Origin: Alloalcanivorax xenomutans
GTDB lineage: Bacteria > Pseudomonadota > Gammaproteobacteria > Pseudomonadales > Alcanivoracaceae
Direction of reading: 5' to 3'
Length of the DNA stretch: 64,000 nt
NCBI RefSeq assembly: GCF_900217905.1
Contig: NZ_OBMO01000005.1
Location: 62,001 to 126,000, forward strand
The notes beneath the pieces are model-generated. The model saw nothing but the letters and a program-made list of their open reading frames with translations, ran no database searches and was not told the origin of the DNA. The position numbers were made by a program, and so were the translations under genes. Below are positions 1-52,801 of this stretch, in pieces; the stretch's first letter is position 1; the number at the start of each line of letters is the position of its first letter.

Positions 1-141
1 GTGCATGAGTTACTTAATGACCATTTCGTTCTTGAGCGCATGGCTTCTGCTCATAATCCTTATGGAGATGGCCGGGCGGCAGGCCGAATTGTAAAGCATC
101 TGCTTGCCTGGCGTGATGGAGAGAGCTTGGAGAAAAGATGA
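1..141 (+). CDS. wecB: UDP-N-acetylglucosamine 2-epimerase, C-terminal end (partial)
   Basis: An open frame runs from the window edge to a TGA at 139-141 and encodes the last 46 residues of a longer protein. The stretch NPYGDGRAAGRIV matches the C-terminal NPYGDG-A--RI motif of non-hydrolysing UDP-GlcNAc 2-epimerases (WecB/MnaA), which make UDP-ManNAc for surface polysaccharides. The stop overlaps the start of the next gene in ATGA fashion, so the two are translationally coupled. The context, a polysaccharide assembly operon, agrees. Only the tail is visible, so the assignment rests on one motif plus context. Confidence 0.72.
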   Translation: MHELLNDHFVLERMASAHNPYGDGRAAGRIVKHLLAWRDGESLEKR

Positions 142-1520
142 GGAAAGACGAGGTGGGATCCGGTTATCCCGAAATGAGCAGATGGACGCTCAGCCAGAGA
201 ACAGGAGGAAGATTGGCTCTGGCGATATATACCGTTATCGCCGTTGCCATGTTGGTATGGCCGTTCTCTTATGAACTGTTTAAGAGTCAGCTGGTGGGAT
301 TAATCCTGCTCTTACCTATCGCGCTAAGGACGAAATTATCATTTTCCATAGCGAGAAGTATGGTGTCCTGGAGCTGGGGAGTCTATCTGGTTCTATTATT
401 TGGCGTTGCGCTCCATTTATTGCTTGGGGAGAATAACTCGGAGCTGCCCCTGTTCATGGTCTATGTAGTGAAGGTTCCCATTGTTTACTGTGCGGTTAAC
501 CTTACTTATCAAACATTGTTGTCCTCTGGTTGGAGCCGGGGACAAGCGCAATGTTGGCTATGGGCTGCAGTTGTTGTGCCTTTGATAGTGACACTATGTC
601 AGCTTCTTTTCCCATCCTTTCACAACTGGTCTATTGACGTCCTTGGGGGCTTCAGAGTCAGTGATGTAATCGCGCGGCACGCGGAAGGGCATCCATTTCG
701 TTTTTTTGGGCTGAACGGTTTTTTGTTTGCTTCCCATGCTGTCGCCTATGGGTTCTGTGCCCTGGCTTTGTGTATTGTTAGAGGTCAGTTGGCCTCCCCA
801 ATCATTCGAGCCGGGCTTTTTTTGGTTGAGATGTCTTGTCTACTTATGGCTCTTTTGGCTGGTAGGAGTGCGTTGCCGTTGGTTGCGCTTTATGTTCTGT
901 ATAGTCTTTGGGTGGCAAAACAGGGCAGGGTACGTTTTCTTCTGGTTGTATTTTATATAATGTTCTTTGCTCTGGCTGTATTGATTTTACAAAAATCCGA
1001 TGACGGTAGAAAATACTTATATTGGCTCGCGGAGCCTGTGCTGACATCTATAGAAAAAGGGCGCCTGGCGTCGCACTCGGTGGATGAAACTCTTGATTCC
1101 TATGCGGGAATTAGTCGCTCTGAAAAAGAGAAAGGATGTCAGTCCACCATTAAACAAATCGTTGGTTGTGGCGTTTACTTTCGTAGCAATGCAGAATATG
1201 CAAAGGTCGGATTGGTGGCTAGTGATTCCGGCTATGTGCGCTTTATATATGCGGTAGGGTATTTGGGGTTGGGGACTTTTGTTGCCTTTCTTATTATGAT
1301 TTTATGTCAGGTTGTCGTTGGGAGAGATTGGCTTAAAAAATTAAAAGAAAATTTATTTTGCGTGTTTTTTTTAATTTATGGTTTTGTGTTTTTGTTTAAA
1401 TCTGAATGGATGTATCAGAATTACTTTGTTTTTTATTATTTCTTGCTTGTTGTTCTGAGGAAAGAGGTGGTGCCTGATTATGGAAGTAATGTTCGTGAGA
1501 GCGTTCTTGCCTCATCTTGA
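138..1520 (+). CDS. O-antigen/exopolysaccharide polymerase-like membrane protein (Wzy/WaaL type)
   Basis: The 460-residue product is very hydrophobic, with about ten to twelve predicted membrane segments spread along its length. It has a larger soluble loop near residues 300-370 that contains several charged residues and two cysteines. This topology (many helices and one big periplasmic loop in the second half) is that of Wzy polymerases and O-antigen ligases, which are too divergent to separate by eye. It starts within the stop of the epimerase gene (ATGA) and overlaps the next glycosyltransferase gene by 41 bases. Codon use is AT-richer than in the housekeeping genes further right, as is usual for exchanged O-antigen loci. 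Polymerase is favoured because a flippase gene lies in the same operon. Confidence 0.65.
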   Translation: MRKDEVGSGYPEMSRWTLSQRTGGRLALAIYTVIAVAMLVWPFSYELFKSQLVGLILLLPIALRTKLSFSIARSMVSWSWGVYLVLLFGVALHLLLGENNSELPLFMVYVVKVPIVYCAVNLTYQTLLSSGWSRGQAQCWLWAAVVVPLIVTLCQLLFPSFHNWSIDVLGGFRVSDVIARHAEGHPFRFFGLNGFLFASHAVAYGFCALALCIVRGQLASPIIRAGLFLVEMSCLLMALLAGRSALPLVALYVLYSLWVAKQGRVRFLLVVFYIMFFALAVLILQKSDDGRKYLYWLAEPVLTSIEKGRLASHSVDETLDSYAGISRSEKEKGCQSTIKQIVGCGVYFRSNAEYAKVGLVASDSGYVRFIYAVGYLGLGTFVAFLIMILCQVVVGRDWLKKLKENLFCVFFLIYGFVFLFKSEWMYQNYFVFYYFLLVVLRKEVVPDYGSNVRESVLASS

Positions 1521-2592
1521 TTCAAGAATGAATAAATACGTGAGAGCGTTGAAGAGAAAGGGGTATGAATCTCGGTTCATTGGCTGGATCCGAGAAAATG
1601 AGGAAATTGGAGGTGACGAAAAAAGTCTGTTTTATCGGCGTACGGCCCTCTTGGGTGGTAGGTGGCGTAACGCACTGTCTTTGTTTGGATGGAATTTTTT
1701 TGTAATAAAGTCATTAATTAGGTCTCGAAAGCGTACGTCGGTAGTGCATGCGGTGGATCTTGACAGCGCACTGGCTGCGTACATTTTTTGTTGTATCTTT
1801 CGGACGCCCTTCGTTTTTGATATCTATGATCACTATGCCGATACACGAAGTGTAGGAGGATTGCCTGGAAAGCTTGCCTCCAGTATCGAACGCTTCCTGG
1901 CTCGCCGTGCCGATTTGACTTTGTTAGCGGATGAGTGCCGTTATCATCAACACCTATTGTCACCAGCTCCACATATTATGGTGGTGGAGAATGTGCCAGA
2001 TTTCGAATGGCCGGTAACCCCTATTTCAAATCTTCCGAGAACTCCTTTGAAAATAGGATACTTCGGGGTCCTTGAGCCAATAAATCGTGGCCTCGAAGAT
2101 CTCCTCCGGGCTTGTGCAGACTGGGACGGTGTCGAGTTACACATTGCAGGATATGGACCTCTTGAAGGCGAGGTAATGGAATACGAGAAGCGTCACAGCA
2201 ATGTGGTCTACCATGGTGCACTCTCTCACGAGCGGGGGCTGCGTGTGCTTTTGGAGATGCATTGTGTGGTTGGCTTTTATTATTTAACGGTGCCAAATCA
2301 TCGCTATGCTTCACCGAATAAGTACTATGAACACCTATTTCTTGGCCGGCCTCTGCTAACAACGAAAGGAACGCCTCCAGGAGATAAGGTGAATAGCGCG
2401 CTAACCGGGTGGAGCTTGGAAGAGGGAGAGCAACAAATAAGAAATTGGTTGCACGGTGTGATGTATGACGATGTTGTTGAGCGTGGCCGGCGTGCCCGTA
2501 CCCTATGGGCTGAATATTATGAAGATTACTCATTGAGGGTCCTGGAACACGAATACTGTGGCCGGCTTATGGAGCTGGCTAAATATGGATAA
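1480..2592 (+). CDS. glycosyltransferase, family 4-like
   Basis: The 370-residue protein has a GT-B layout: an N-terminal half starting MEVMFVRAFLPHLDSR that would bind the acceptor, and a C-terminal half with IGYFGVLEP followed by HIAGYGPLEGEV, typical of the nucleotide-sugar-binding half of GT1/GT4 enzymes. The usual E-x7-E region is represented by the SPNKYYEHLFLGRPLL stretch. It probably adds one sugar to the lipid-linked repeat unit at the inner face of the membrane. The start overlaps the polymerase gene by 41 bases and its end overlaps the next glycosyltransferase by 8 bases. The donor and acceptor cannot be read from sequence. Confidence 0.72.
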   Translation: MEVMFVRAFLPHLDSRMNKYVRALKRKGYESRFIGWIRENEEIGGDEKSLFYRRTALLGGRWRNALSLFGWNFFVIKSLIRSRKRTSVVHAVDLDSALAAYIFCCIFRTPFVFDIYDHYADTRSVGGLPGKLASSIERFLARRADLTLLADECRYHQHLLSPAPHIMVVENVPDFEWPVTPISNLPRTPLKIGYFGVLEPINRGLEDLLRACADWDGVELHIAGYGPLEGEVMEYEKRHSNVVYHGALSHERGLRVLLEMHCVVGFYYLTVPNHRYASPNKYYEHLFLGRPLLTTKGTPPGDKVNSALTGWSLEEGEQQIRNWLHGVMYDDVVERGRRARTLWAEYYEDYSLRVLEHEYCGRLMELAKYG

Positions 2593-3382
2593 TGTGCAAC
2601 CTCTCGTTTCGATCATTATGCCCGCCTACAATGCAGAGGCCACTCTGGAGGAGTCCATTAAGTCGGTCCTCGCCCAGACATTGCAGGATTGGGAGTTGAT
2701 TATTGCTGTCGACGCCGCGACGGATGGAACCCTTGCGATTGCCCTTGGATGGCAGAATAAAGATAGCCGAATTCGAGTTATTTTTGAAGAAGTAAACCAA
2801 GGGGTGGCAGGAATCCGGAATTTAGCGATGGCGCAGGCAAGCGGTAAGTATATCGCTTTCCTTGATAGCGATGACTTATGGCTTCCCGAGAAACTCTCAA
2901 TGCAGCTTTCCTTTATGTCGGAATCTGGCGCGCGGGTTTGTTATTCGGCATATCGTCGTTTTGATAAACAAGGGCCGCTGAATATAGTCATGCCACCTGA
3001 TCGAGTAGACTACCCGCGCCTACTTAGAGGCAATGTGATTGGTAATTTAACAGGGGTTGTTGAGAGAAGTTTAGTTGATGGTATCTGGTTTGAGCGCGTT
3101 GGTCATGAGGACTATCTGTTTTGGTTGAAAGTTCTGGCGCGAGCGGGAGTCGCCTACCGTGTTCCTGGAAATGCTCCGATTGCGGAGTATCGTGTTGCGG
3201 AAAATTCATTGTCAGCAAATAAGGTAAGGAATATGCGTTGGCAGTGGCATATTTATAGAAAAGAACTTGAACTTCCTTTGGCTCAATCTCTTTATTTTAT
3301 GGCTAGCTATGTGATTCTGGCGTTTTATAAGAGGGCTGGTTTGCGCTCACTTTTTTTCTCTGTGAAACCCGGAGGGAAATAG
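2585..3382 (+). CDS. glycosyltransferase family 2
   Basis: This is a GT-A enzyme of about 265 residues. The N-terminus carries the family 2 hallmark VSIIMPAYNAEATLEESI, then a nucleotide-binding FLDSDDLW motif (DxD equivalent) near residue 93, and a catalytic-region GHEDYLFWLK near residue 175. The ATG at 2585 was chosen over an upstream in-frame ATG at 2558 because conservation begins directly after it; it overlaps the previous gene by 8 bases. The protein would transfer a sugar during O-unit or exopolysaccharide assembly on the cytoplasmic side. Its stop shares one base with the GTG start of the flippase gene. Confidence 0.8.
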   Translation: MDNVQPLVSIIMPAYNAEATLEESIKSVLAQTLQDWELIIAVDAATDGTLAIALGWQNKDSRIRVIFEEVNQGVAGIRNLAMAQASGKYIAFLDSDDLWLPEKLSMQLSFMSESGARVCYSAYRRFDKQGPLNIVMPPDRVDYPRLLRGNVIGNLTGVVERSLVDGIWFERVGHEDYLFWLKVLARAGVAYRVPGNAPIAEYRVAENSLSANKVRNMRWQWHIYRKELELPLAQSLYFMASYVILAFYKRAGLRSLFFSVKPGGK

Positions 3383-4689
3383 TGCGTTTTTGCTTGACTA
3401 AGGTTCCTTCGTTGCGCTCTTATTCGAGTCTTCGGAGTCTGTTTTGGTTGATTTCTGAGAAAGCAGTACAGATTGCTTTTTCCGCTATTTCAGTTGGGTT
3501 GATTGCCAGAACGCTTGGCGTCGATGCTTTCGGCGACTTTCAATATGTGCTTTCGGTATTGTTTGTCTTCTCTTCTATCGCTTTATTGGTTGGTTCGGAA
3601 GTGGCGGCGCCGATACTAGTGGAAGCTTCCAGCAGAGAGCAGCGCAGGCAGGTTTTGGGGTCGCTATTTGGAGTTCGTCTGATTGTCGCTGGTGCCGCTT
3701 TTCTGGCTCTGATCGTGTGGGCTGTTATCGTCGAGCAGGAAAACTATTCGACACTCCTGGCCATTTTGGCATTATCTCTCTTGATAACCGAGCCATTTAA
3801 CGTCTTTCGATTAATAAGAGAAGTTCAGCAAAACACCCGCATCATAGCATGGATAAGAATCGCCAGCTCTTTCCTTAAAGTCATTCTTGTTTATATTTTG
3901 TACCGTAAAGAAGCGACTATTCTGGCATTCGCTTTATTGTATTCTGCGGAATATTTTTTTGTTGCATTTTGCTACTTTTTCTTTGTCAGGGAGGAAGGCA
4001 GGCCGTGGAATTGGAAGGTGGTAGCCGGAAAAATGATTTATTTTGTTCGTCATGGTTTTTTTGTTTGGCTCGGCGTGCTTTCAATGATGGCTATTCAGCG
4101 CTTGGATCGTGTGGCGATGGAAGGTTGGTTGCCTTCGGAGCTATATGGCCAGTATGCGGCTGCACTCAACTTGGTCGATAGCGCATGGTTTTTCGGGCCA
4201 GTCGCTGTAGCCGCATTGGCTCCCTCTATTGTTTACAGAGATGATTCTTTTTTTTCAGGAAAGGGAGCATTAAAATTTTTAGCCATGATGATGTTAATCG
4301 GATTAAGCGTTGCGATAGCGGTTTCGCTATTCGCACCATTTATTGTGCCCTTAATTTTTGGGCGGAATTTTCAAATTACTACAACGGTCGTTCAAGTCAG
4401 TATTTTTATACTTGTTCCTGGATTTGCTGCACTGAGTTTGGATGCCGTATTGGTTAAGAGTAAACAGCATCGAATGGTGACTTTAAAATGGTTGGCTGGT
4501 CTGATAGTGGCTTTAAGTATCCTCTTCATGCCATGGCAAGGGATGTCATGGGAGCGGGGGCCTTTGGCGATTTTTGCCGGTTACTTAGTCAGTTTTCTAT
4601 GTGGTTTGGTAGCTGCAGTACGCTATTTTGTTAGCTCAAGGAATCTCGGTGACGCTGGTGGCAAAGATGAGAATCGTACAGCTCTATGA
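3382..4689 (+). CDS. polysaccharide flippase (Wzx-like, oligosaccharide transporter family)
   Basis: The 435-residue protein has about 12 hydrophobic helices and no large soluble domain, like Wzx flippases of the MOP exporter superfamily. The N-terminal stretch ending ARTLGVDAFGDFQYVLS is typical of the family (A--LG---FG-Y). It would move undecaprenyl-linked oligosaccharide across the inner membrane. The start is a GTG with a strong GGAGGG ribosome site five bases upstream; it shares one base with the preceding stop. The 3' end overlaps the next glycosyltransferase by 23 bases. With the polymerase gene upstream it suggests a Wzx/Wzy-dependent pathway. Confidence 0.75.
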   Translation: MRFCLTKVPSLRSYSSLRSLFWLISEKAVQIAFSAISVGLIARTLGVDAFGDFQYVLSVLFVFSSIALLVGSEVAAPILVEASSREQRRQVLGSLFGVRLIVAGAAFLALIVWAVIVEQENYSTLLAILALSLLITEPFNVFRLIREVQQNTRIIAWIRIASSFLKVILVYILYRKEATILAFALLYSAEYFFVAFCYFFFVREEGRPWNWKVVAGKMIYFVRHGFFVWLGVLSMMAIQRLDRVAMEGWLPSELYGQYAAALNLVDSAWFFGPVAVAALAPSIVYRDDSFFSGKGALKFLAMMMLIGLSVAIAVSLFAPFIVPLIFGRNFQITTTVVQVSIFILVPGFAALSLDAVLVKSKQHRMVTLKWLAGLIVALSILFMPWQGMSWERGPLAIFAGYLVSFLCGLVAAVRYFVSSRNLGDAGGKDENRTAL

Positions 4690-5761
4690 CAGTTTTTGCG
4701 AGAAAGGCGGGGTGGAGCGCGTCGTCGCATTGCTGCTGAATGAATGGGCCAAACAGGGGCACGATGTAACTTTGATGGTGCGATACGGGGAGATTGATTC
4801 GATTTATCCCCTAGTTCCTGAAGTTAACCTGGTTACGTTGGGTAGGCGAGCAGCCAAGACTCGAGTCGCGCGAATAGTGAACTATGGTCGTGATGTGACA
4901 GCTTTACGTCATAGCCCTGATTTGACTCAGGCAGACGTTGTGATTGCGAACGGGCCGTGGTGTGGGTTGTTGGCCGTTTTGGCACTAAAAGGAATTCTAA
5001 GAAAAGGAGAGGGCCCCAAAGTCGTGGTGTGTGATCACAATAGCCCGTCAGCTTTCGGTTGGGGTACTCGCTTCCTTAGTCGACTTCTATACCGGAGAAC
5101 GGATTGCATCGTTGCTCTAACACAAGCCCAAGTTCCCTATTATCAGGATGTTGCACGGGAGATCCGTGTAATCCCCAATCCGGTAGAATTACCTGAGTCG
5201 CATGTGGAAGATAGAGTGCGAAACCCTGACTTTGTGCTAGCAATTGGACGCTTATCACGTCAGAAAGGGTTTGATCTCCTTTTGCCGGCCTGGGCGCAGG
5301 TAAGCAGAGAGGTACCGACTGCAAAACTTGTTATCGTAGGGGAGGGGGCGGAGGAGACGTCCTTGCGGAAGCAGGTGAGCGAGTTGGGATTGGGCGCGTG
5401 CGTGGAGCTGCATCCATTTACGGATGATGTTACTGCTTATTATCGGCAAGCAACTATATTTGTTATGAGTTCAAGGTTCGAAGGATTACCTTTGGTCCTT
5501 TTGGAGGCACAGGCTCATGGTTTACCCATTGTTTCATTCGATTGTGAGTATGGGCCTCGCCAGGTTGTCACTCATGAGAAAAACGGGCTTTTGTGTCCTC
5601 CTGAAGATCCTGATGGACTGGCGACCGCCCTTATTCGCCTATTGAAAGACCAAACTTCCAGAGCGGTGTACTCCTTCGCTGCCCAAGAAGCTGCCAGGAC
5701 CTACTCGCTGCCAGCTGTTATGGAGTATTGGTCGCGATTATTCGAGGATTTGCAGCAGTGA
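4667..5761 (+). CDS. glycosyltransferase family 4
   Basis: The 364-residue GT-B protein has an N-terminal CEKGGVERVVALLLNEWA motif, common in GT4 enzymes of the PimA/WaaG type. The C-terminal half contains LAIGRLSRQKGFDLLL, IVGEGAEE and the E-x7-E region SRFEGLPLVLLEAQAHGLP, which binds the nucleotide sugar. The ATG at 4667 is preferred over a TTG at 4628 because the family's conserved N-terminus starts there. It is the last gene of the polysaccharide operon; AT-richer DNA ends soon after it and a tRNA gene follows. Sugar specificity is unknown. Confidence 0.82.
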   Translation: MRIVQLYDSFCEKGGVERVVALLLNEWAKQGHDVTLMVRYGEIDSIYPLVPEVNLVTLGRRAAKTRVARIVNYGRDVTALRHSPDLTQADVVIANGPWCGLLAVLALKGILRKGEGPKVVVCDHNSPSAFGWGTRFLSRLLYRRTDCIVALTQAQVPYYQDVAREIRVIPNPVELPESHVEDRVRNPDFVLAIGRLSRQKGFDLLLPAWAQVSREVPTAKLVIVGEGAEETSLRKQVSELGLGACVELHPFTDDVTAYYRQATIFVMSSRFEGLPLVLLEAQAHGLPIVSFDCEYGPRQVVTHEKNGLLCPPEDPDGLATALIRLLKDQTSRAVYSFAAQEAARTYSLPAVMEYWSRLFEDLQQ

Positions 5762-5878
5762 TGCCAGTTGAGGGCTGGGATGGCCTGCTGTTTCGCTTCT
5801 CTGCCCTGCTGTTCAACCAGGTAGCCGCGTACTGATGCGATGAGTAAGCGGCCTTGGCCACTCAATCCGCGCACAAAG

Positions 5879-5911
5879 AAAAAGGGCCTACCCAATGGAT
5901 AGACCCTTTTC
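5879..5911 (-). terminator. Rho-independent terminator of tRNA-Asn
   Basis: Directly downstream of the tRNA on the minus strand there is a hairpin with AAAAGGGTCTA pairing with TAGGCCCTTTT around a short loop, followed by a T-rich run. On the plus strand it also ends in T's, so it may stop transcription from the polysaccharide operon as well. Confidence 0.7.
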
Positions 5912-5915
5912 TATT

Positions 5916-5991
5916 TGGCTCCGCCTGCTGGGCTCGAACCAGCGACCCGCTGATTAACAGTCAGCTGCTCTACCAACTGAGCTAAGGCGGA
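5916..5991 (-). tRNA. tRNA-Asn (anticodon GTT)
   Basis: A 76-base cloverleaf reads on the minus strand from 5991 to 5916. The acceptor arms TCCGCCT and AGGCGGA pair, and discriminator G plus an encoded CCA follow. The D-arm contains AGCTCAGTTGGTAGAGC, the anticodon stem GCTGA/TCAGC encloses the loop CTGTTAA with anticodon GTT, and the T-arm contains GGTTCGAGCC. It lies between the foreign-looking polysaccharide cluster and the aspC gene. A consensus promoter lies upstream and a hairpin terminator lies downstream. Confidence 0.97.
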
Positions 5992-6008
5992 ATGTCTTGA
6001 GGCCGCGT

Positions 6009-16900: not shown

Positions 16901-18200
16901 CAAAGACGTGGACTGGACGGCGATTAGCGACGCCGCCTGGTTCGGCATGGAACGGGCGGAAAAAGCCACCAGCAAAGGCTACACCGGCCACGAAATGCTC
17001 GACGACGTCGGCATCATCCACATGGGCGGCCGCATCTACGACCCCACCATCAGCCGCTTCCTCAGCGCCGACCCGGTGATCAAGGGCCTGGACCAGGTGG
17101 AAAGCTACAACCGCTACAGCTACGCCCTCAACAACCCCATGAGCATCACCGACCCCAGCGGCTACTCCTGGCTGAGCAAGACCTGGAAGAAACTGCGGAA
17201 CTCGATCAAGAAGCGGATGGGGATTGTACTGGCGGTGTTCAATCCGCAAATGGCCATCGCGGAAGTGACATCCCGCTACGCAGGCAAGGAAATGGCTCGG
17301 TTTGCCGCGAGGAACAAGTTTGCGGGTGAGGTGTTTGGGATTGTTGGCATGGCGGGGTGCGGGGTATTTACCGGAGGGACAGGTGCGGCTGGATGTCTAA
17401 GTGCCTACCAGACCTGGGCCGCCGGGGCCGTTACCTACGGTAGTGGCGCTCCTATTGAAAAAGCACTCATGGCAGGCGTGAAGTCCGCTGCGCTGGCTTA
17501 TGCGGATGCGGGTGTGGCAGGCGCAATCGGTGACCTCAAGCTTGGCGCGATAGGAAGTGGTATCGCCCACGGTGCCCGTGGCGCAGCCTTCGCCCGCCTG
17601 CGAGGTGCCGATGTCAAATCCGGTGTCATCGGTGGTATGACCGAAGGAATGATCGGTAACAGAATCAAGGGATGGACCGACGGTGAGCGGGGCTCTGGGA
17701 CAGTATTGGCGGGGCTGGTTAGTGGTACTGTATCCGAGGCTACGGGGGGCAAGTTCATGGTGGGGGCTGCTACCGGGGCTATGGGGTATTTGTTTAACCA
17801 GATGGCTCATGGTGCGCAAAAGAGGCGAAGCTGTTCTGGTCAAATGTGTAGATCTGCTGGTAAAACCAGTAATGATCATGTCGCTGGTGCTACCGATGAC
17901 TTTCTTGACAATTACGACGATATGAGAGATGCCAACACAATTGGGGCTGACAAATATTTTCACTGTAAAGCGAATTGTGAAGCTTCTCAGCGTGGCCCAA
18001 CAGGGGAGCGAACTGCTGAATGGATAAGTAACACTAGAGAGTGGGTAGACCAAAATATTAAAGGTGACCCTTTATCCGCTAGCCAGGCTGACCAAAGAGC
18101 AAATATATATGGTCGCCAGCAAGGCAGCAGTCACCCTCAAGGTGATTGTAAAGTTTTGTGCTCGCCGTTTAGGCCAAATGGATTGGATCGGAAATACTAG
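10968..18200 (+). CDS. giant secreted SpvB/FG-GAP/Rhs polymorphic toxin-like protein
   Basis: This 2410-residue protein has an N-terminal export signal (hydrophobic LRVLLVVLFAVAGSAMA near residues 29-45). Domains in order: SpvB-type domain (about 235-500, LPKGGAGVDPSFSVQYSSG), FG-GAP/VCBS repeats with DxNxDG calcium loops (about 520-950), a TcdB-middle-like region (about 955-1130), many YD repeats (about 1230-1960) and the Rhs core ending GGRIYDPTISRFLSADPV and YSYALNNPMSITDPSGYS (about 2022-2067). The last 344 residues are a Gly/Ala-rich hydrophobic stretch and then a tip with GADKYFHCKANCEASQRGP and further cysteines. Such proteins form a cocoon that carries a C-terminal effector. The tip's activity is not recognised. 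DNA of the tip is AT-richer than the core, a sign of toxin exchange. A ribosome site AGGGGTGGGG precedes the start. Confidence 0.88.
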   Translation: MFTRCIAGLLLLCLRGSNQVAVRVHRKCLRVLLVVLFAVAGSAMAALPLNENRYDIYYGDIDSVENGLDGLPDILLKPRQQYVLISTKVSFPAPIDSGYQPLLFCGTSSGNFVACTMREGADLPGSPSSEFEFLIGDLDNDGTPDVLLKSNSPDENSLFLRSKGDGTFQLADQFTHIGDELVSGGAEVDIGQNRDADGDVIQFDVNKYSQWTGSGFSEPKSIELSTSLVGSSASSFSVELGQAQFSLPIQLPKGGAGVDPSFSVQYSSGSGYGQAGMGFNISGTSAIERCGKSYERDGLVTGVKGNDQDLACLDGNRLVLVSGAYWGNGSIYQTEAESDRKIVYSQGGFTVHGKNGDVMYYGSRADTRITGRLSSNAVGRWVLDGVEDRLGYGYRVTYQPGSAGYFPQKIEYTVKDGQAGSGDAEVEFTYEPDPYGWRTAVLGKVYKVGLRLASVTSRSHGSVARQYHFRYETSPATKRSLLAQFFECDASVRCFEPITLNWKKERQPDFSKTTYSRFPGTPSTDYVFEEGLHYPGFARWVDINRDKYDDYCRISGTGAGYGSAAEIICYLSDGNGGFGSQVEIDAGLVGTRLQQDSESPVPDWGRHNWNVDPAWIDINDDGLVDLCYSTIQGDNDRLTCRLNKPNLQNAFKELITFDVSRPVGKFYVGPRSWMDFNGNGKIDYCYTYLKDNKKYIRCLVQSVNGFTFSEAFTKEISDMAGYWADVNGDGLPDYCITTKTKITCHINNQGQGLNGGIWAKTGTHFQANEPDRWVYKGSSTKYFSALFTDFTGNGFSDFCRIYWTTSNGKGGYRASCLESLGDGWGNEITSPFLQVTPTTAQDYERMPEATQFMDVNQDGRMDWCVENTVPGVSDTHLTCFISTPDGFGASSVKYRLPYLGSNIRGMRDINRGWADINGDGHDSYCALYWKSLVPRNRGMACFGPQVPEQGDLLTGVTNGFGLEYGVTYKDIADPSVYAYGGPTGSHGQVFLTKGMNVVSELEASDGIGGYNTQQYFYRNYGYYPNEFGGVGFEMLRVTSENGRKRHDIWFNQNVRNHTVGQVDRSETYYEVGGGFQLVASEENEWQTQIYRGQGFPLQSASSIWNRNAGISLRYRSLLKGSVSKEYELDGSLIKTVASSNTYKNTGDLLTQEVTTSGTGQTFSKRLVNQYLTNNLTYWILGRQSRSEATYSGSYQGQAVPAITRTSAWTYYSASQPGIGGMLKSEIVEPDLPGLRKETRYTYNAYGLTETRVEKGAGGAERSTQFTYDPTGRFVVATRNTLGHTSKATYDPVLGVKLTESDPNNVTTRWDYDSLGRPLTEFGADGQRRETRIKACISNCPGNAVYYTESWLAARNGTPISGPTREYTDRLGRTIETRATGFGGETIVVKTEYDANGDVTRTSEPHELGGAVYWNQVVSRDVLGRPLVERSASGLTSNHQYNGLTTQQTVSWSDPVGGGQTTQVTVHTNDVQDRLRRVVDAANRQLTYQYDASGKLLKVVLPDQVELVNTYDALGRKVGSQDPNIGQWQYAYDDFDQIVLQQNGSGARTCSAYDELGRLISRTDDYRPSLTWAQASQAALNGCAGQAATHSWSYDAPAKGVGRLALVTANNGYREEPFYDGIGRVVQVDTRFDGRQFTSSSQFDNDTGRLVQETLPHRINGPSLSVEYRYNAQGELYEIGKPGEEDYYWRANAKTVRGQIKDVYQGNGIIRKLYDHDSASGFLTQIRSKMTFDTTWGIQNEFYDFDAKGLMRKRTQQAVGNLEQVEETFAYDVVDRLVQATVANMTTPGNSFEQSIDYDVNGNILQRNDVGQYQYGESCEVGGTQYTPGPHAVTSVTGARNASYCYDSGGNMLSGGGKTISYTAFNKPDRIQGTSATVDFVYGPDRALLKQVTTTSGKITSKISLGGYEYLDIQKNGQTTIKERFRITGDVVVSFENGDATSPNEEHLFMDGMGSVVAVAHGLGGVTERYRYDPWGRPRKDVDWTAISDAAWFGMERAEKATSKGYTGHEMLDDVGIIHMGGRIYDPTISRFLSADPVIKGLDQVESYNRYSYALNNPMSITDPSGYSWLSKTWKKLRNSIKKRMGIVLAVFNPQMAIAEVTSRYAGKEMARFAARNKFAGEVFGIVGMAGCGVFTGGTGAAGCLSAYQTWAAGAVTYGSGAPIEKALMAGVKSAALAYADAGVAGAIGDLKLGAIGSGIAHGARGAAFARLRGADVKSGVIGGMTEGMIGNRIKGWTDGERGSGTVLAGLVSGTVSEATGGKFMVGAATGAMGYLFNQMAHGAQKRRSCSGQMCRSAGKTSNDHVAGATDDFLDNYDDMRDANTIGADKYFHCKANCEASQRGPTGERTAEWISNTREWVDQNIKGDPLSASQADQRANIYGRQQGSSHPQGDCKVLCSPFRPNGLDRKY

Positions 18201-18202
18201 AT

Positions 18203-18349
18203 ATGAATAAATTATTATTATTCGCTGCAATACTATTTGTGTTAGTCGCTGGATTTTTTTGGCTGAAAGGCGAAATGAAAATTGATTCCTGTTTGGATAA
18301 TGGAGGTCGTTGGAATTATGAAACAAAATCCTGCGAATATTCTTCGTAG
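18203..18349 (+). CDS. 48-residue membrane-anchored ORF, candidate immunity protein of the Rhs toxin
   Basis: An ATG two bases after the Rhs stop opens a 48-codon frame. The product has an N-terminal transmembrane helix (LLLFAAILFVLVAGFFW) and a short tail with CLDNGGRWNYETKSCEY. The tail would face the periplasm or form a small disulfide-linked knob. CLD-GG-W-----C motifs are frequent in small accessory proteins of secretion and polymorphic-toxin loci. Immediate linkage, AT-rich composition matching the toxin tip, and membrane location make an immunity role likely; this is inference. The ribosome site is weak, suggesting coupling to the Rhs stop. Confidence 0.6.
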   Translation: MNKLLLFAAILFVLVAGFFWLKGEMKIDSCLDNGGRWNYETKSCEYSS

Positions 18350-18354
18350 GCTCT

Positions 18355-18400
18355 GGGGGGCAGGTCTTGCCTTGTGCCTTTCGAAGGGGTGAGGCTGGAA
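18355..18400. repeat. partial copy of an island-specific palindromic repeat
   Basis: GGGGGGCAGGTCTTGCCTT followed by TGTGCCTTTC resembles the left half of the elements at 18937 and 21854. The right half is missing or degraded. Confidence 0.4.
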
Positions 18401-18547
18401 TTTTTGTATAGATAAAGTAATGACTGGAGGAGCCACGGATGGCCAGACCGTTGCGCCTGGAGCTTCATACCCACTCTGAATCCTGTGGACAGAGGCCGGC
18501 TATAGATCTGATGGTTGTTTGTATTCTCGAAATCCAAAGGAAAAGGT

Positions 18548-18898
18548 ATGAATAGAGGAATATCGATCAGAACAGTATTGTTAGGGGCTTTACTTGTTTG
18601 TTCGATGACCGCCAGGGCAGAGCTGGTCTGGTCTGGCAATCTTGGCGTCTCTGAAATCATTACGGTGGATAACGGTGGCTTTCTGATTGGCTTTACGGCT
18701 CCGGTTGATCCCGCGTGTACGCAGTGGAGTACCAAACACCTCTGCGTGTATCCCGGCGAGCAGGGACTGACACTGGATGTCATTCCCTCCTATCTTGCTC
18801 TGGGGCTGAGCGCACTGACCACGGGAGCAGAGGTGAAGGCGCATTACGATAATGCTACTCCGCTCTGCTATGTGAAGTATCTCCAGATTGGTCGGTAG
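18548..18898 (+). CDS. small secreted protein downstream of the Rhs gene
   Basis: This is a 116-residue protein with a Sec signal (TVLLGALLVCSMTARA) and a mature part starting ELVWSGNLGVSEIITV. It contains three cysteines and ends with CYVKYLQIGR. The ATG at 18548 has an AAAGGAAAAGG ribosome site; an in-frame ATG at 18515 would put charged residues in front of the signal. No named family is recognised. Its pattern (short beta strands, FLIGFTAPVD, LALGLSALTTGAEVKAHY, terminal hydrophobic strand) parallels the 112-residue protein upstream of the Rhs gene and the one at 19601. Function unknown; possible secreted accessory or defence factors of the same island. Confidence 0.62.
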   Translation: MNRGISIRTVLLGALLVCSMTARAELVWSGNLGVSEIITVDNGGFLIGFTAPVDPACTQWSTKHLCVYPGEQGLTLDVIPSYLALGLSALTTGAEVKAHYDNATPLCYVKYLQIGR

Positions 18899-18936
18899 AA
18901 CCGGAGCAATACATCGTGAATGCGCTCGGGCTTTTA

Positions 18937-19009
18937 GGGGCGGGTCTTTCCACTTGCCTTTCTTGGCTGAGAAGGATGGCTGCAAAGCACCGGGCAAGAC
19001 CTGGCCCCC
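18937..19009. repeat. island-specific palindromic repeat, full copy
   Basis: A 73-base imperfect palindrome begins GGGGCGGGTCTTTCC and ends GGGCAAGACCTGGCCCCC, with TTGCCTTTCTTGGC in the left half. The ends are near reverse complements. A second full copy lies at 21854-21923 and a half copy at 18355. It differs from the GTGGGAGC repeats elsewhere in the window. Confidence 0.6.
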
Positions 19010-19057
19010 GTGGTGCTCTGTTGACGGTTACCTGAAATTATGGACGGGGCCATAGGT

Positions 19058-19495
19058 ATGTTCATTCGCATTTTTCTTTCTGTGCTCTTTGTATCTTTTG
19101 CTACGGGATGTACGACGATCGTACATAGTGATCTTGTTGGTGAGTGCAAAGTACTGGCATTTGATCAGAAGTTGTGGGTTGGCCGAGAGGAGGGGAGCGT
19201 TGGGCAGAATCTCATGACCTCTCTTCAGCAAGAAGAGATCATGTGGAGCAGAAAGAGTGTTGCAGGGATCGTAGAAAAAGGGACCAAAATCAGAGTTGAG
19301 AATGTCATTAGCGGGTGGAATGGCTCATCAGGAAGGTACTTGCGAGTACAAGTAAAAATATTGGATGGGCCATTTTCTGGAGTGGTTACAGATATTCCAG
19401 CTAAAGCTCCTTATCATCCTGGTCCTTCATGGGTGAATTTTACATTGGATCCAAACGAGCTGAGATTAGACCCTTATCTCCTCAAGGATTGTTAA
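19058..19495 (+). CDS. putative lipoprotein
   Basis: The 145-residue product begins MFIRIFLSVLFVSFATGC, a lipoprotein signal with a cysteine lipobox (ATGC), and continues with TTIVHSDLVGECKVL. The ATG at 19058 is chosen because the signal starts there; an in-frame ATG at 19040 would add six residues. The mature part has charged beta-rich sequence, for example RVENVISGWNG and RYLRVQVKILDGPFSG, and ends in a cysteine. No family is recognised. It lies in a run of small exported proteins after the Rhs gene, each with its own ribosome site and separated by 100-160 bases. Confidence 0.6.
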   Translation: MFIRIFLSVLFVSFATGCTTIVHSDLVGECKVLAFDQKLWVGREEGSVGQNLMTSLQQEEIMWSRKSVAGIVEKGTKIRVENVISGWNGSSGRYLRVQVKILDGPFSGVVTDIPAKAPYHPGPSWVNFTLDPNELRLDPYLLKDC

Positions 19496-19600
19496 AAAAG
19501 TACCCTGTTACCGCTTGGGGTCAGGGCTTATTCTGTGCTGGGGTTGAGCACGGAGTGCAAACCTGAGGCTTCATCGAGAGAATTTTTTTGGAGGTAGGAT

Positions 19601-19978
19601 ATGAAACGGATTGTTCTTTTTCTAGGTGTTTTCTTGGTGCCAGGACTGATCCAGGCCGGTGAGCCAACTTGTCATACCAGCACGGCGGCTCCTTACTGCT
19701 ACTATTTAGGTAAAGTGAAACAACTTTATATCAATGATAGTGGCGTAATGCTGCTTTACTTCGATACCCCGATGGCTTCTGGCGCGCCAGCGAGCGTTGG
19801 TATTGGCGGCGTGTCGAAATTCGTGGCGGGCGCGATTTCCTATAAGGACAAGCCGGAGTTTGCTTCCTACTTCTACAGCACGGCTCTGGCGGCTCAAACC
19901 ACAGGTAAAGACGTTAAGATTCAAATGAGGGGAACGGTTGGGGGATATTTAAAAATTGACCGTATATGGGTGGAGTGA
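19601..19978 (+). CDS. small secreted protein
   Basis: This is a 125-residue protein with signal peptide MKRIVLFLGVFLVPGLIQA and mature start GEPTCHTSTAAPYCYYLGKV. A good GGAGGTAGG ribosome site lies just upstream. The mature domain has GKVKQLYINDSGVMLLYFDTP and a terminal GGYLKIDRIWVE strand, which parallels the other two small secreted proteins flanking the Rhs gene. No family name can be given. It is convergent with the GFA-family gene; only 22 bases separate the two stops. Confidence 0.65.
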   Translation: MKRIVLFLGVFLVPGLIQAGEPTCHTSTAAPYCYYLGKVKQLYINDSGVMLLYFDTPMASGAPASVGIGGVSKFVAGAISYKDKPEFASYFYSTALAAQTTGKDVKIQMRGTVGGYLKIDRIWVE

Positions 19979-20000
19979 CCGGGAAGGCTCGCCAAATTCA

Positions 20001-50812: not shown

Positions 50813-51262
50813 ATGTCCGATCAATCCAAGGACAATAACCAGGATAAAAAAGACGAACGCGGCCCTTTGCGCACCCTCACCGGTGCCTCCCGGGACCTGC
50901 GTAAGTACACCCACCAGATCTGGCTGGCGGGGCTTGGCGCTTTTGCCCGCGCGGAGGAAGAGGGCAGTGGTTTCTTCGACGCGCTGGTGGAAGCCGGCCG
51001 CCAGGTGGAAAAGCACACCCGCGAGAAAGCCCCGCGGGTGGAGGACATAAAGGAACGGGTTCGTCATCACACTGGCGAGACCATGGACCGCATGGAAAAA
51101 GCTTTCGATGACCGCCTGAGTAAGGCGTTGTCACGGTTGGGTATCCCCAACAAGCGGGAGGTGGAGGCGCTGCAACGCCGGGTCCAGGAGTTGACCGATG
51201 CCCTGGAAAGGATGGAGGACGAGGAGTCGGAGCCCGAATCCAAACCCCGGGACCCGGAATAA
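50813..51262 (+). CDS. phasin family protein (polyhydroxyalkanoate granule-associated)
   Basis: The 149-residue, hydrophilic protein carries the phasin motif RKYTHQIWLAGLGAFARAEEEGSGFF-type region (cut here as RKYTHQIWLAGLGAFARAEE) near residues 30-50, then charged helices (KHTREKAPRVEDIKERVRHH) and a C-terminal coiled coil ELTDALERMEDEESEPES. Phasins coat polyhydroxyalkanoate granules or act as stress-related chaperones in Pseudomonas-like species. The ATG at 50813 has GGGAGAAG upstream. No PHA synthase lies in the window, so storage polymer use is not shown. The gene ends where a long AT-rich gap starts. Confidence 0.85.
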   Translation: MSDQSKDNNQDKKDERGPLRTLTGASRDLRKYTHQIWLAGLGAFARAEEEGSGFFDALVEAGRQVEKHTREKAPRVEDIKERVRHHTGETMDRMEKAFDDRLSKALSRLGIPNKREVEALQRRVQELTDALERMEDEESEPESKPRDPE

Positions 51263-51374
51263 ATCGTGCTCCGTTTCCGTGGGATGCTGCCTTGGCAGCG
51301 AATCGACGTGTAAATCGGCTGCCCCACGACTCTGGGACAGCCGCGCCCTTGCTTTTCCCCTGCCTATTGCCAGC

Positions 51375-51896
51375 TTATTCACAAAGTTATCCACAGATTC
51401 GTCCGGCGTGCTCCACAGGGGCGCATCGGACTATGAAAAATAACGCTATTCATCCACAGGAATGACCTGGAACAGGGCAGAAGGCCAAAATCCGGACCTT
51501 GGCGTCTGTTCACTATTGACATCGACAAATCGGCCCGAAACTGTGCACAGCACCTGGTGGGATGTGAAAGTCGGTAACAAAACTTCCCAAAAGGTCTAAA
51601 TCGCTTAAAGTTGATTCCGTAACTTATTGAAAAACAAAGATTTTCTTTAATTGGTCAAAAAAACGTCAAATTGCGCAATCTCCCCTTATTAAGCCGTCAT
51701 GGCTTGTTTTCCTCACTTTCTCAACAGGGTTATCCACAGGAACTGTGGAAAACCGGCATGACCGTTCCAGGTCCCGGATTTTCCTTCCGTCAGTACGGTC
51801 AAAATCACACCAATGAACAGGTACCGGCGTACTGTCTGGGATGTGAGTCTTCTCGCACCGGTTATACACTGGTTTATCCACAGAAGCTGTGGGTAA
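51375..51896. other. AT-rich intergenic region with a DnaA-box cluster (oriC-like)
   Basis: This region makes up most of the 636-base gap between the phasin and the Tat dehydrogenase genes. It holds four consensus DnaA boxes on the plus strand: TTATTCACA at 51375-51383 and TTATCCACA at 51387-51395, 51730-51738 and 51874-51882. It also has TTTTCCACA on the minus strand at 51744-51752. Near matches are at 51450 (TCATCCACA), 51862 (TTATACACT) and 51888 (TTACCCACA, minus). Between the two outer groups lies an AT-rich stretch at about 51580-51690. No gene is seen here. The pattern suggests a replication-initiator binding region; whether it is oriC, a titration site or something else is not settled. 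Confidence 0.6.
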
Positions 51897-51898
51897 CC

Positions 51899-52801
51899 TC
51901 AGGCGAAGCCGCTCAGCAATCCCCCGTCCACCAGGAATGAGGTGCCAGTGACATAGGACGCGTCATCGGAAGCCAGCCAGACCGCGACCTTGGCCACCTC
52001 TTCCGCCGATGCAACGCGGCGCACCCCGCGAACCAGCTGGTTGGCCCGTGCCACCGCTTCCGGGTTGCTGCCGGTGGCACGCCGGAACATGGGGGTATCG
52101 GTTATGCCCGGGGCCACCACGCAGGCGCGCAGGCCCTGATCGGCGTAGTCGAGTGTGGCGCTTTGCGCGAGAGCTTCCAGGGCGGCCTTGCTACTGGCGT
52201 ACGCGGCGCCGCCCGGGCGGGTGGCGTAGGCGTGCTGGGAGGAGGTGATGACAATGCGTCCCGCACCGCTCTCCAGCAGCGGCGGGATCTGGTATTTCAT
52301 AGCCAGGAACACGCCGCGCAGATTGGTGTGGTGAATATGCTCCCAATCCTCCAGCGTCAATTGGTGCAGCGGTTTGAACAACACCTCGCCAGCGTTGTTG
52401 TAGCCCACGTCCAGACGCCCGTGGTGATCCAGTGTTTTATCGATAAAGGCGCGCACCTGCTCCGGCCGGGTGACGTCCGCTTCTATATACAGAGCCTGGC
52501 CGCCTTGTCGGGTGATCTCTTCTTGCACCTGCCGGCCCAGTGCGGTGCGCCGGCCGCAGAAGGTGACCCGGGCGCCTTCGGCGGCGAACAGGCGGGCGGC
52601 GGCGGCACCGATGCCCGAGGTGGCGCCGGTGATGGCAACGACCTTGCCGTGGAAGCGGCCTGGCGGGCGCGGCGGCGCGGGGGACGATTCCGCCTGGGCG
52701 GGGCTGGCGGAGAGGGTGGTGGACAGGAGGGTGGAGGGCGCGGCGCTGGCCGCCAGTCCGGTGGCTCCCAGCTTGAGAAAACGGCGACGATCCGGGGTCA
52801 T
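51899..52801 (-). CDS. short-chain dehydrogenase/reductase with Tat signal
   Basis: The 300-residue protein begins with a twin-arginine signal (MTPDRRRFLKLGATGLAASA) and continues with a classical SDR domain: nucleotide-binding GATSGIG, NNAGEV, catalytic SSQHAYATRPGGAAYASSKA with Ser-Tyr-Lys, and the C-terminal SYVTGTSFLVDGGL. It probably works in the periplasm or its signal is uncleaved; cofactor supply there is an open question. The start at 52801 is chosen for the RRRFLK motif; an upstream ATG at 52882 would add 27 residues. It is divergent from a LysR regulator with a palindrome between them. Confidence 0.8.
   Translation of the reverse strand: MTPDRRRFLKLGATGLAASAAPSTLLSTTLSASPAQAESSPAPPRPPGRFHGKVVAITGATSGIGAAAARLFAAEGARVTFCGRRTALGRQVQEEITRQGGQALYIEADVTRPEQVRAFIDKTLDHHGRLDVGYNNAGEVLFKPLHQLTLEDWEHIHHTNLRGVFLAMKYQIPPLLESGAGRIVITSSQHAYATRPGGAAYASSKAALEALAQSATLDYADQGLRACVVAPGITDTPMFRRATGSNPEAVARANQLVRGVRRVASAEEVAKVAVWLASDDASYVTGTSFLVDGGLLSGFA

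Follow-up and report, generated by a model that had tools for sequence, protein, structure and literature searches.

The 64,000-nt stretch of Alloalcanivorax xenomutans DNA analysed here (the window; C13:62001-126000 of a 4.35-Mb genome in 47 contigs) contains a dense cluster of DnaA boxes at 51375-51896, and the question raised by this locus is whether it serves to start replication, to take DnaA out of circulation, or to act upon DnaA in some other manner. A sequence-only reading had proposed an oriC candidate or a titration site. What is retained of the latter is the idea of a non-origin site acting on DnaA; the anatomy is that of a DARS, not of a plain titration or datA-like site. We infer, with fairly high confidence, that the element functions as a DARS2-type, IHF-coupled DnaA-reactivation locus in a tandem-core variant. 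The preference for DARS over titration follows from two cores of opposed boxes with exact 14/12 offsets and from the fixed distance at which an IHF-like site stands.

The cluster lies, as had been stated, in a 636-bp gap, bounded by the stop at 51262 of a phasin gene (PF05597; 50777-51262, plus strand) and the stop at 51899 of a convergent short-chain dehydrogenase (SDR) gene (PF00106/PF13561; 51899-52882, minus strand), an intergenic placement, as expected of a DARS, and here between convergent genes. The phasin gene, the left neighbour, points towards the element and served as synteny anchor; the closest named relatives of its protein are from Alloalcanivorax balearicus (97% identity) and Alcanivorax sp. 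24 (94%). An acyl-CoA synthetase-like gene (PF00501; 58374-60203, minus strand) is found 6.5 kb from the element, with other genes between. The gene name bcp was assigned by eye.

Words within one mismatch of TTATCCACA number 20 in the window, as compared to 7.0 (sd 2.7) in dinucleotide shuffles, with 0/100 shuffles reaching 20 or more, and seven of the 20 fall within 51375-51896; the claim that so many boxes are unlikely by chance was thus confirmed. The reported "four perfect" plus-strand boxes require a qualification: exact TTATCCACA occurs at 51387, 51730 and 51874, and the box at 51375 is TTATTCACA, so that the count of four is correct for the consensus TTATNCACA and the count for exact TTATCCACA is three. 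The one minus-strand consensus box (TTTTCCACA at 51744-51752) and near matches such as TTACCCACA (51888-51896, minus strand) were recovered as described. Conversely, the near match at 51450-51458 shows 0/9 invariant columns in relatives, and is thus not conserved. Genome-wide, exact TTATCCACA occurs 16 times among the matches listed, three of these in the cluster, and nowhere else in the genome do more than two TTATNCACA fall within 2 kb among the matches listed. The AT-rich stretch in a GC-rich genome also held up, 51590-51680 being 70% AT and the contigs mostly 55-66% GC.

DARS sites have been characterised in E. coli, where DARS1 and DARS2 are reported to have three boxes in common at equal spacing, box I being opposed to II and III, and the release of ADP is described as driven by the opposed DnaA molecules on boxes I and II. 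A core was defined here as a set of three DnaA boxes at offsets of 14 and 12, box I facing the opposite way to II and III. In E. coli K-12, both the bioD-uvrB gap (DARS1) and the rppH-mutH gap (DARS2) carry a plus-strand box, followed by a minus-strand box after 14 and another after 12; these reference loci (L173 and L174), and datA (L175), were assigned by gene neighbours, published map positions and the geometry found. The window holds the mirror image of this core twice, at 51862(+)/51874(+)/51888(-) and 51718(+)/51730(+)/51744(-), the box number, orientation and spacing of a DARS thus being present in duplicate. The middle core comprises a degenerate box III, TTCTCAACA (51718-51726, plus strand), box II, TTATCCACA (51730-51738, plus strand; 9/9 columns invariant), and box I, TTTTCCACA (51744-51752, minus strand; 8/9 columns invariant), opposed to II at offset 14. 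The right core comprises box III, TTATACACT (51862-51870, plus strand), box II, TTATCCACA (51874-51882, plus strand), and box I, TTACCCACA (51888-51896, minus strand), likewise opposed at offset 14. Each core has two mismatches to the consensus; box III of the middle core (TTCTCAACA) is weak, and boxes I and III of the right core deviate from the consensus as well. In addition, a direct pair is found on the left, consisting of TTATTCACA in a III-like position (51375-51383, plus strand; 5/9 columns invariant in 12 genomes) and TTATCCACA at offset 12, as for II/III (51387-51395, plus strand; 9/9 columns invariant); no box I is present at the offset-14 place of this pair.

Allowing up to three mismatches, the genome itself contains four cores, as opposed to 0 for the reversed pattern: two in the element, one at C12:126996 and one at C39:16387. 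Across the order, a core with at most two mismatches was found in 229/390 genomes and 101/142 genera, and none at this threshold in the remaining 161/390 genomes, whereas the reversed pattern gave 0 among the genomes listed in the order-wide scan. Lengthening each core spacing by one base gave 0/95 genomes, versus 56 of the same 95 with the real core.

Every column of the 12-row genus alignment was scanned for the IHF consensus. This revealed one clear IHF-like place, WATCAANNNNTTR read on the minus strand at 51620-51632 within the AT-rich stretch (51590-51680), which occupies the same aligned place in 12/12 genus sequences, with one mismatch in 11 rows, including the window's own, and two in G002. 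Among letter-shuffled motifs, 1/300 equalled this conservation. As a consensus match, the site provides the IHF-like element at a set distance that is characteristic of DARS2: its distance to box III is 85 bp for the middle core; the right core has no IHF-like match within 140 bp. E. coli DARS2 has corresponding matches on the minus strand at 58 bp and on the plus strand at 74 bp from box III, separated by 3 bp. IBS1 and IBS2 of DARS2 are likewise described as 3 bp apart and as required for activity, which is reported to be lowered when they are shifted by 5 or 10 bp (Kasho et al. 2014). No IHF-like match was found within 140 bp of the core in E. coli DARS1. The genome of the window encodes IHF-alpha, and SeqA was not found in it. 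For Fis, a scan with two consensus forms gave no place common to all 12 sequences, and the GGTYAA...C block shows a loose Fis-like match in 9/12.

The element was matched by DNA search in 12/13 genus genomes, several over part of its length only, and these 12 were aligned; the thirteenth, G006, gave no DNA match but a weaker profile match (E 6.7e-10), and stands outside the alignments. A 252-bp inner block aligns without gaps in 11 sequences. Invariant columns are concentrated at box and box-like positions (61/81, versus 100/480 elsewhere in the 12 aligned sequences). Outside the boxes, conservation is seen in the block TTCACTATTGACA (51509-51521), invariant in all aligned genus sequences, in the block CTGTGCACAG (51541-51550), which contains half a DnaA box on either strand and has 8/9 columns (51541-51549) invariant, in a strongly conserved A-tract block, TTGGTCAAAAAAACGTCAAA (51651-51670; 16/20 columns from 51649 invariant), and in the genus alignment also in the block GGTCAAAATCACACCA (51797-51812) between the middle and right cores. 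In the genus, almost every base of the blocks at 51509-51521 and 51651-51670 is conserved; the two are distinct from both the DnaA boxes and the IHF-like site, and share TTGAC-like words in opposite directions. To our knowledge, neither has a counterpart in DARS2.

A first conserved-block pattern was too narrow, matching 3/390 genomes and missing the window's own. The block profile, by comparison, matches 45/46 genomes and 8/8 genera of the family, some of these matches being at other loci and the kin not being independent. Among 18 loci of other genera from the profile search, a phasin gene lies beside the match in 12 and an acyl-CoA synthetase gene in 15. Taking named phasin loci as the starting point, 26/33 have a core in the flanking DNA examined, the first core being on the same strand relative to phasin; in the other 7/33 no core was found in that DNA, two of these loci ending within 0.5 kb after the phasin gene and another, from DG881, having a core 8.7 kb further on. 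The cores beside a phasin or acyl-CoA synthetase gene (locus A) are found well away from dnaA, at chromosome fractions of 0.36 (G396), 0.37 (G397), 0.39 (G400, a two-contig assembly), 0.39 (G002), 0.42 (G009) and 0.45 (G376). The dnaA gene was taken as the origin in four of these six figures, and the skew was tested in G002 and G009. The range of 0.36-0.45 from dnaA in six relatives places the element between oriC and terminus, where DARS sites are reported to lie.

The spacing between core and IHF-like site recurs beyond the genus. In other genera, an IHF-like site was recognised at 84-86 bp in 13/18 locus-A loci, in five of these next to both cores; the remaining 5/18 (L159, L163, L168, L169 and L245) show no match at that distance. 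This count leaves out L165, which is the same place as L244, and L166. In G399 (L166, L251) and G404 (L247), a core is accompanied by an IHF-like site at 85 bp, with no phasin or acyl-CoA synthetase found near, and these loci were kept out of the locus-A count and the position figures.

An independent sample was available in 86 loci of other families with 87 distinct cores, selected without use of the IHF motif; they represent nearly all places among the matches listed outside the family, some near-duplicates having been dropped by hand. An IHF-like site on the expected strand 83-87 bp from box III was found for 43/87 of these cores, against a background mean of 0.135 per strand and offset and a next best four-base bin of 8 cores on the expected strand. 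The 43 cores span 11 families, several sharing one genus, such that kinship is not independent. None of 120 shuffled motifs reached 43, and the best, at 42, equals a near copy of the IHF motif. In a further nine cores, all from family f37 (L299-L320), the IHF-like site is found on the opposite strand at 71 bp, which may represent an arrangement of the module particular to this clade, and 35/87 have neither the 83-87 bp nor the 71 bp site. Neither dnaA nor rpmH was found in any of the 86 loci, within roughly 1-1.5 kb on each side (less at contig ends), and 6/87 cores lie inside an open frame of at least 120 residues. One locus, L326, contains both a phasin and an acyl-CoA synthetase gene.

Compared with E. 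coli DARS2 (rppH-mutH, 455 bp), the element has in common the three-box core with I opposed to II/III at offsets of 14 and 12, an IHF-consensus match that lies on the side of box III and is oriented like the DARS2 plus match at 74 bp, and an intergenic location between oriC and terminus. It differs in having two tandem cores in place of one, in adding the left pair and the conserved blocks 51509-51521 and 51651-51670, in its flanking genes, and in an IHF-like site at 85 bp as opposed to 74 bp, about one helical turn more. Furthermore, no Fis site was recognised in the element, whereas activation of DARS2 requires Fis-binding sites (FBS2-3), and the element is nearer the terminus, at 0.36-0.45 versus about 0.2 of the chromosome as calculated from published map positions. 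Local alignment of the element with DARS2 scored 34, with shuffles up to 43, i.e. no overall similarity beyond shuffles. The purC-side locus described below scored 30 with DARS2 (shuffle maximum 32) and 42 with the element (30), and in all three whole-element alignments the core-like part alone aligns. E. coli DARS1 (bioD-uvrB) shares the core geometry and has closely similar boxes, TTATCCACT-5-TGTGGATAA-3-TGTGTATTA as compared to TTACCCACA-5-TGTGGATAA-3-AGTGTATAA in the right core of the window. Unlike the element, DARS1 has a single core and lacks an IHF-like match in its vicinity.

The number of boxes and the AT-rich core would also be in line with the true oriC of the chromosome, an assignment that now retains next to no probability. 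Genome-wide, the sole DnaA match falls at 154.7-155.2 kb of contig C34, with rpmH adjoining, in a region that has its own DnaA boxes and an AT-rich stretch between them; the absence of dnaA and rpmH from the cluster, cited earlier against an origin, was thereby corroborated, and the position of dnaA established. A skew minimum elsewhere had been named beforehand as evidence against oriC, and such a minimum was found: the cumulative GC skew of C34 (4-kb steps) reaches it at ~160 kb, within about 5 kb of dnaA/rpmH, and then rises. On C13, the skew is positive in 38/40 steps over the 160 kb examined, with no turn at the cluster (113.4 kb). In two single-contig relatives the skew was taken from 20 samples of 20 kb each. 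All samples of G002 (dnaA at 484 bp, cluster at 1.934 Mb) are positive over 0.1-2.3 Mb and negative over 2.55-4.7 Mb. In G009 (dnaA at 1.433 Mb, cluster at 0.124 Mb) the skew is negative or near zero over 0.01-1.18 Mb, weak over 1.34-1.66 Mb and positive over 1.82-3.05 Mb. The turn is thus at or near dnaA in both, and the skew signs and dnaA positions place the cluster inside one chromosome arm. A second, backup or relict chromosomal origin, similar to the second autonomously replicating element of Pseudomonas aeruginosa, is very unlikely as well. Boxes do flank the 70% AT stretch on both sides at conserved spacing, and P. aeruginosa is reported to have two autonomously replicating elements, only one of them essential, the second lying, like the element, apart from the main one (Jiang et al. 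2006, as described in PMC4403523 and PMC4285127, which mention DnaA boxes in P. aeruginosa origins in general). Against this, no skew turn is seen at the site in the window's own contig or in G002; in G009 the skew is negative at the site itself, and beyond two near-zero samples at 0.22 and 0.38 Mb it returns to negative values. The dnaA/rpmH region moreover has its own boxes, AT-rich stretch and nearby skew minimum, and both neighbouring genes converge on the element.

A datA-like or plain titration site, whose boxes would restrain initiation by sequestering DnaA or, together with IHF, by accelerating ATP hydrolysis, deserves more weight than a second origin, albeit we consider it unlikely. 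Four plus-strand TTATNCACA in direct orientation within 522 bp represent a density seen nowhere else among the matches listed, and direct boxes around an IHF-like site do exist in the element, reminiscent of the IHF site reported between the boxes of datA, which is also intergenic. Still, the essential boxes of datA are described as direct, far apart, around one IHF site and near oriC, whereas the conserved cores of the window are opposed and far from dnaA. Titration does not need opposed pairs at exact 14/12 offsets, yet precisely these recur through the order. The distance of 0.36-0.45 of the chromosome from dnaA also speaks against a datA-like role, as datA relocated to the terminus is reported to lose its effect in rich medium, letting untimely initiations through. 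Thus, datA or pure titration is less likely than DARS. Alternatively, the TTGACA word in the block 51509-51521 and the long, rigid conservation could reflect a DnaA-controlled transcription signal or a non-coding RNA gene, and not a DnaA-regulating site. The flanking genes are convergent, and consequently neither is driven from the element; an Rfam search of the element gave no match up to E = 1, and conservation is densest in the boxes. We assign this explanation a very small probability.

For the DARS2-type reading, a mechanism can be outlined by analogy, with the chemistry taken from E. coli; DnaA binding, IHF binding, nucleotide exchange and timing are all to be understood as predictions. 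In each core, DnaA on box I would face DnaA on box II, opposed as in the E. coli DARS sites, and this pair would cause ADP to leave ADP-DnaA, with box III adding a third molecule. The middle core would be switched on at the right time through a DNA bend introduced by IHF bound ~85 bp from its box III. The released apo-DnaA could then rebind ATP and initiate a new round from the true oriC next to dnaA.

According to Kasho et al. (2014), conservation of the DARS2 core is specific to those gammaproteobacteria that are related to E. coli, and two reviews, citing Fujimitsu 2009, refer to DARS-like sequences in many proteobacterial species or in a number of Gammaproteobacteria. No description of DARS in the order studied here was found in the open-licence literature searched. 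If the reading is correct, a core with an IHF site at 83-87 bp occurs in at least 12 families of one order (the 11 above and the window's own). This would provide a simple, searchable sequence signature and open DnaA recharging beyond the E. coli clade to direct tests, and the role of the spacing could be read from the tandem form and the different helical setting of IHF. The chances appear about even that an IHF-coupled DARS system operates, independently of the E. coli clade, in much of this GTDB order. Such a genome would have one or several loci with the module of core, 85 bp and IHF site, and in Alcanivoracaceae the module would be doubled at a site remote from the origin, in an organism without SeqA. 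DnaA recharging would in that case be an ancient and general gammaproteobacterial cell-cycle control, extending beyond E. coli and its close kin.

Several additional features of the genome were noted. A second DARS-like locus is found at C12:126996-127030 (L242:6997), flanked by purC (PF01259) and the gene for cytochrome bd subunit II (PF02322); a mismatch-free IHF consensus lies 86 bp from box III of its core, followed after another 30 bp by a second IHF-like site. Copies of this purC-side locus occur in other genera and at four loci of another family, f25, in which purC was identified at 69-74% identity, a fifth match having 22%. Seven purC-side loci were compared: an IHF-like site at 85-86 bp is present in 7/7, five without mismatch, a second one ~30 bp further on in 7/7, and the cytochrome bd gene was seen in three. 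A single core at C39:16387-16421 (L243:7388) lies upstream of a ParA-like ATPase gene, at the start of a P450 frame, and has no IHF-like site within 140 bp.

Within the window, 51276-51313, between the phasin stop and the left boxes, is a short dispersed repeat, REP-like by its spread. It has many copies in the window's own genome and in G001, G002 and G012, and none in the other nine genus genomes among the matches listed. Finally, positions 1-6000 and 17000-20000 of the window have a lower GC content (0.45-0.53) and a raised skew, and are perhaps foreign DNA.
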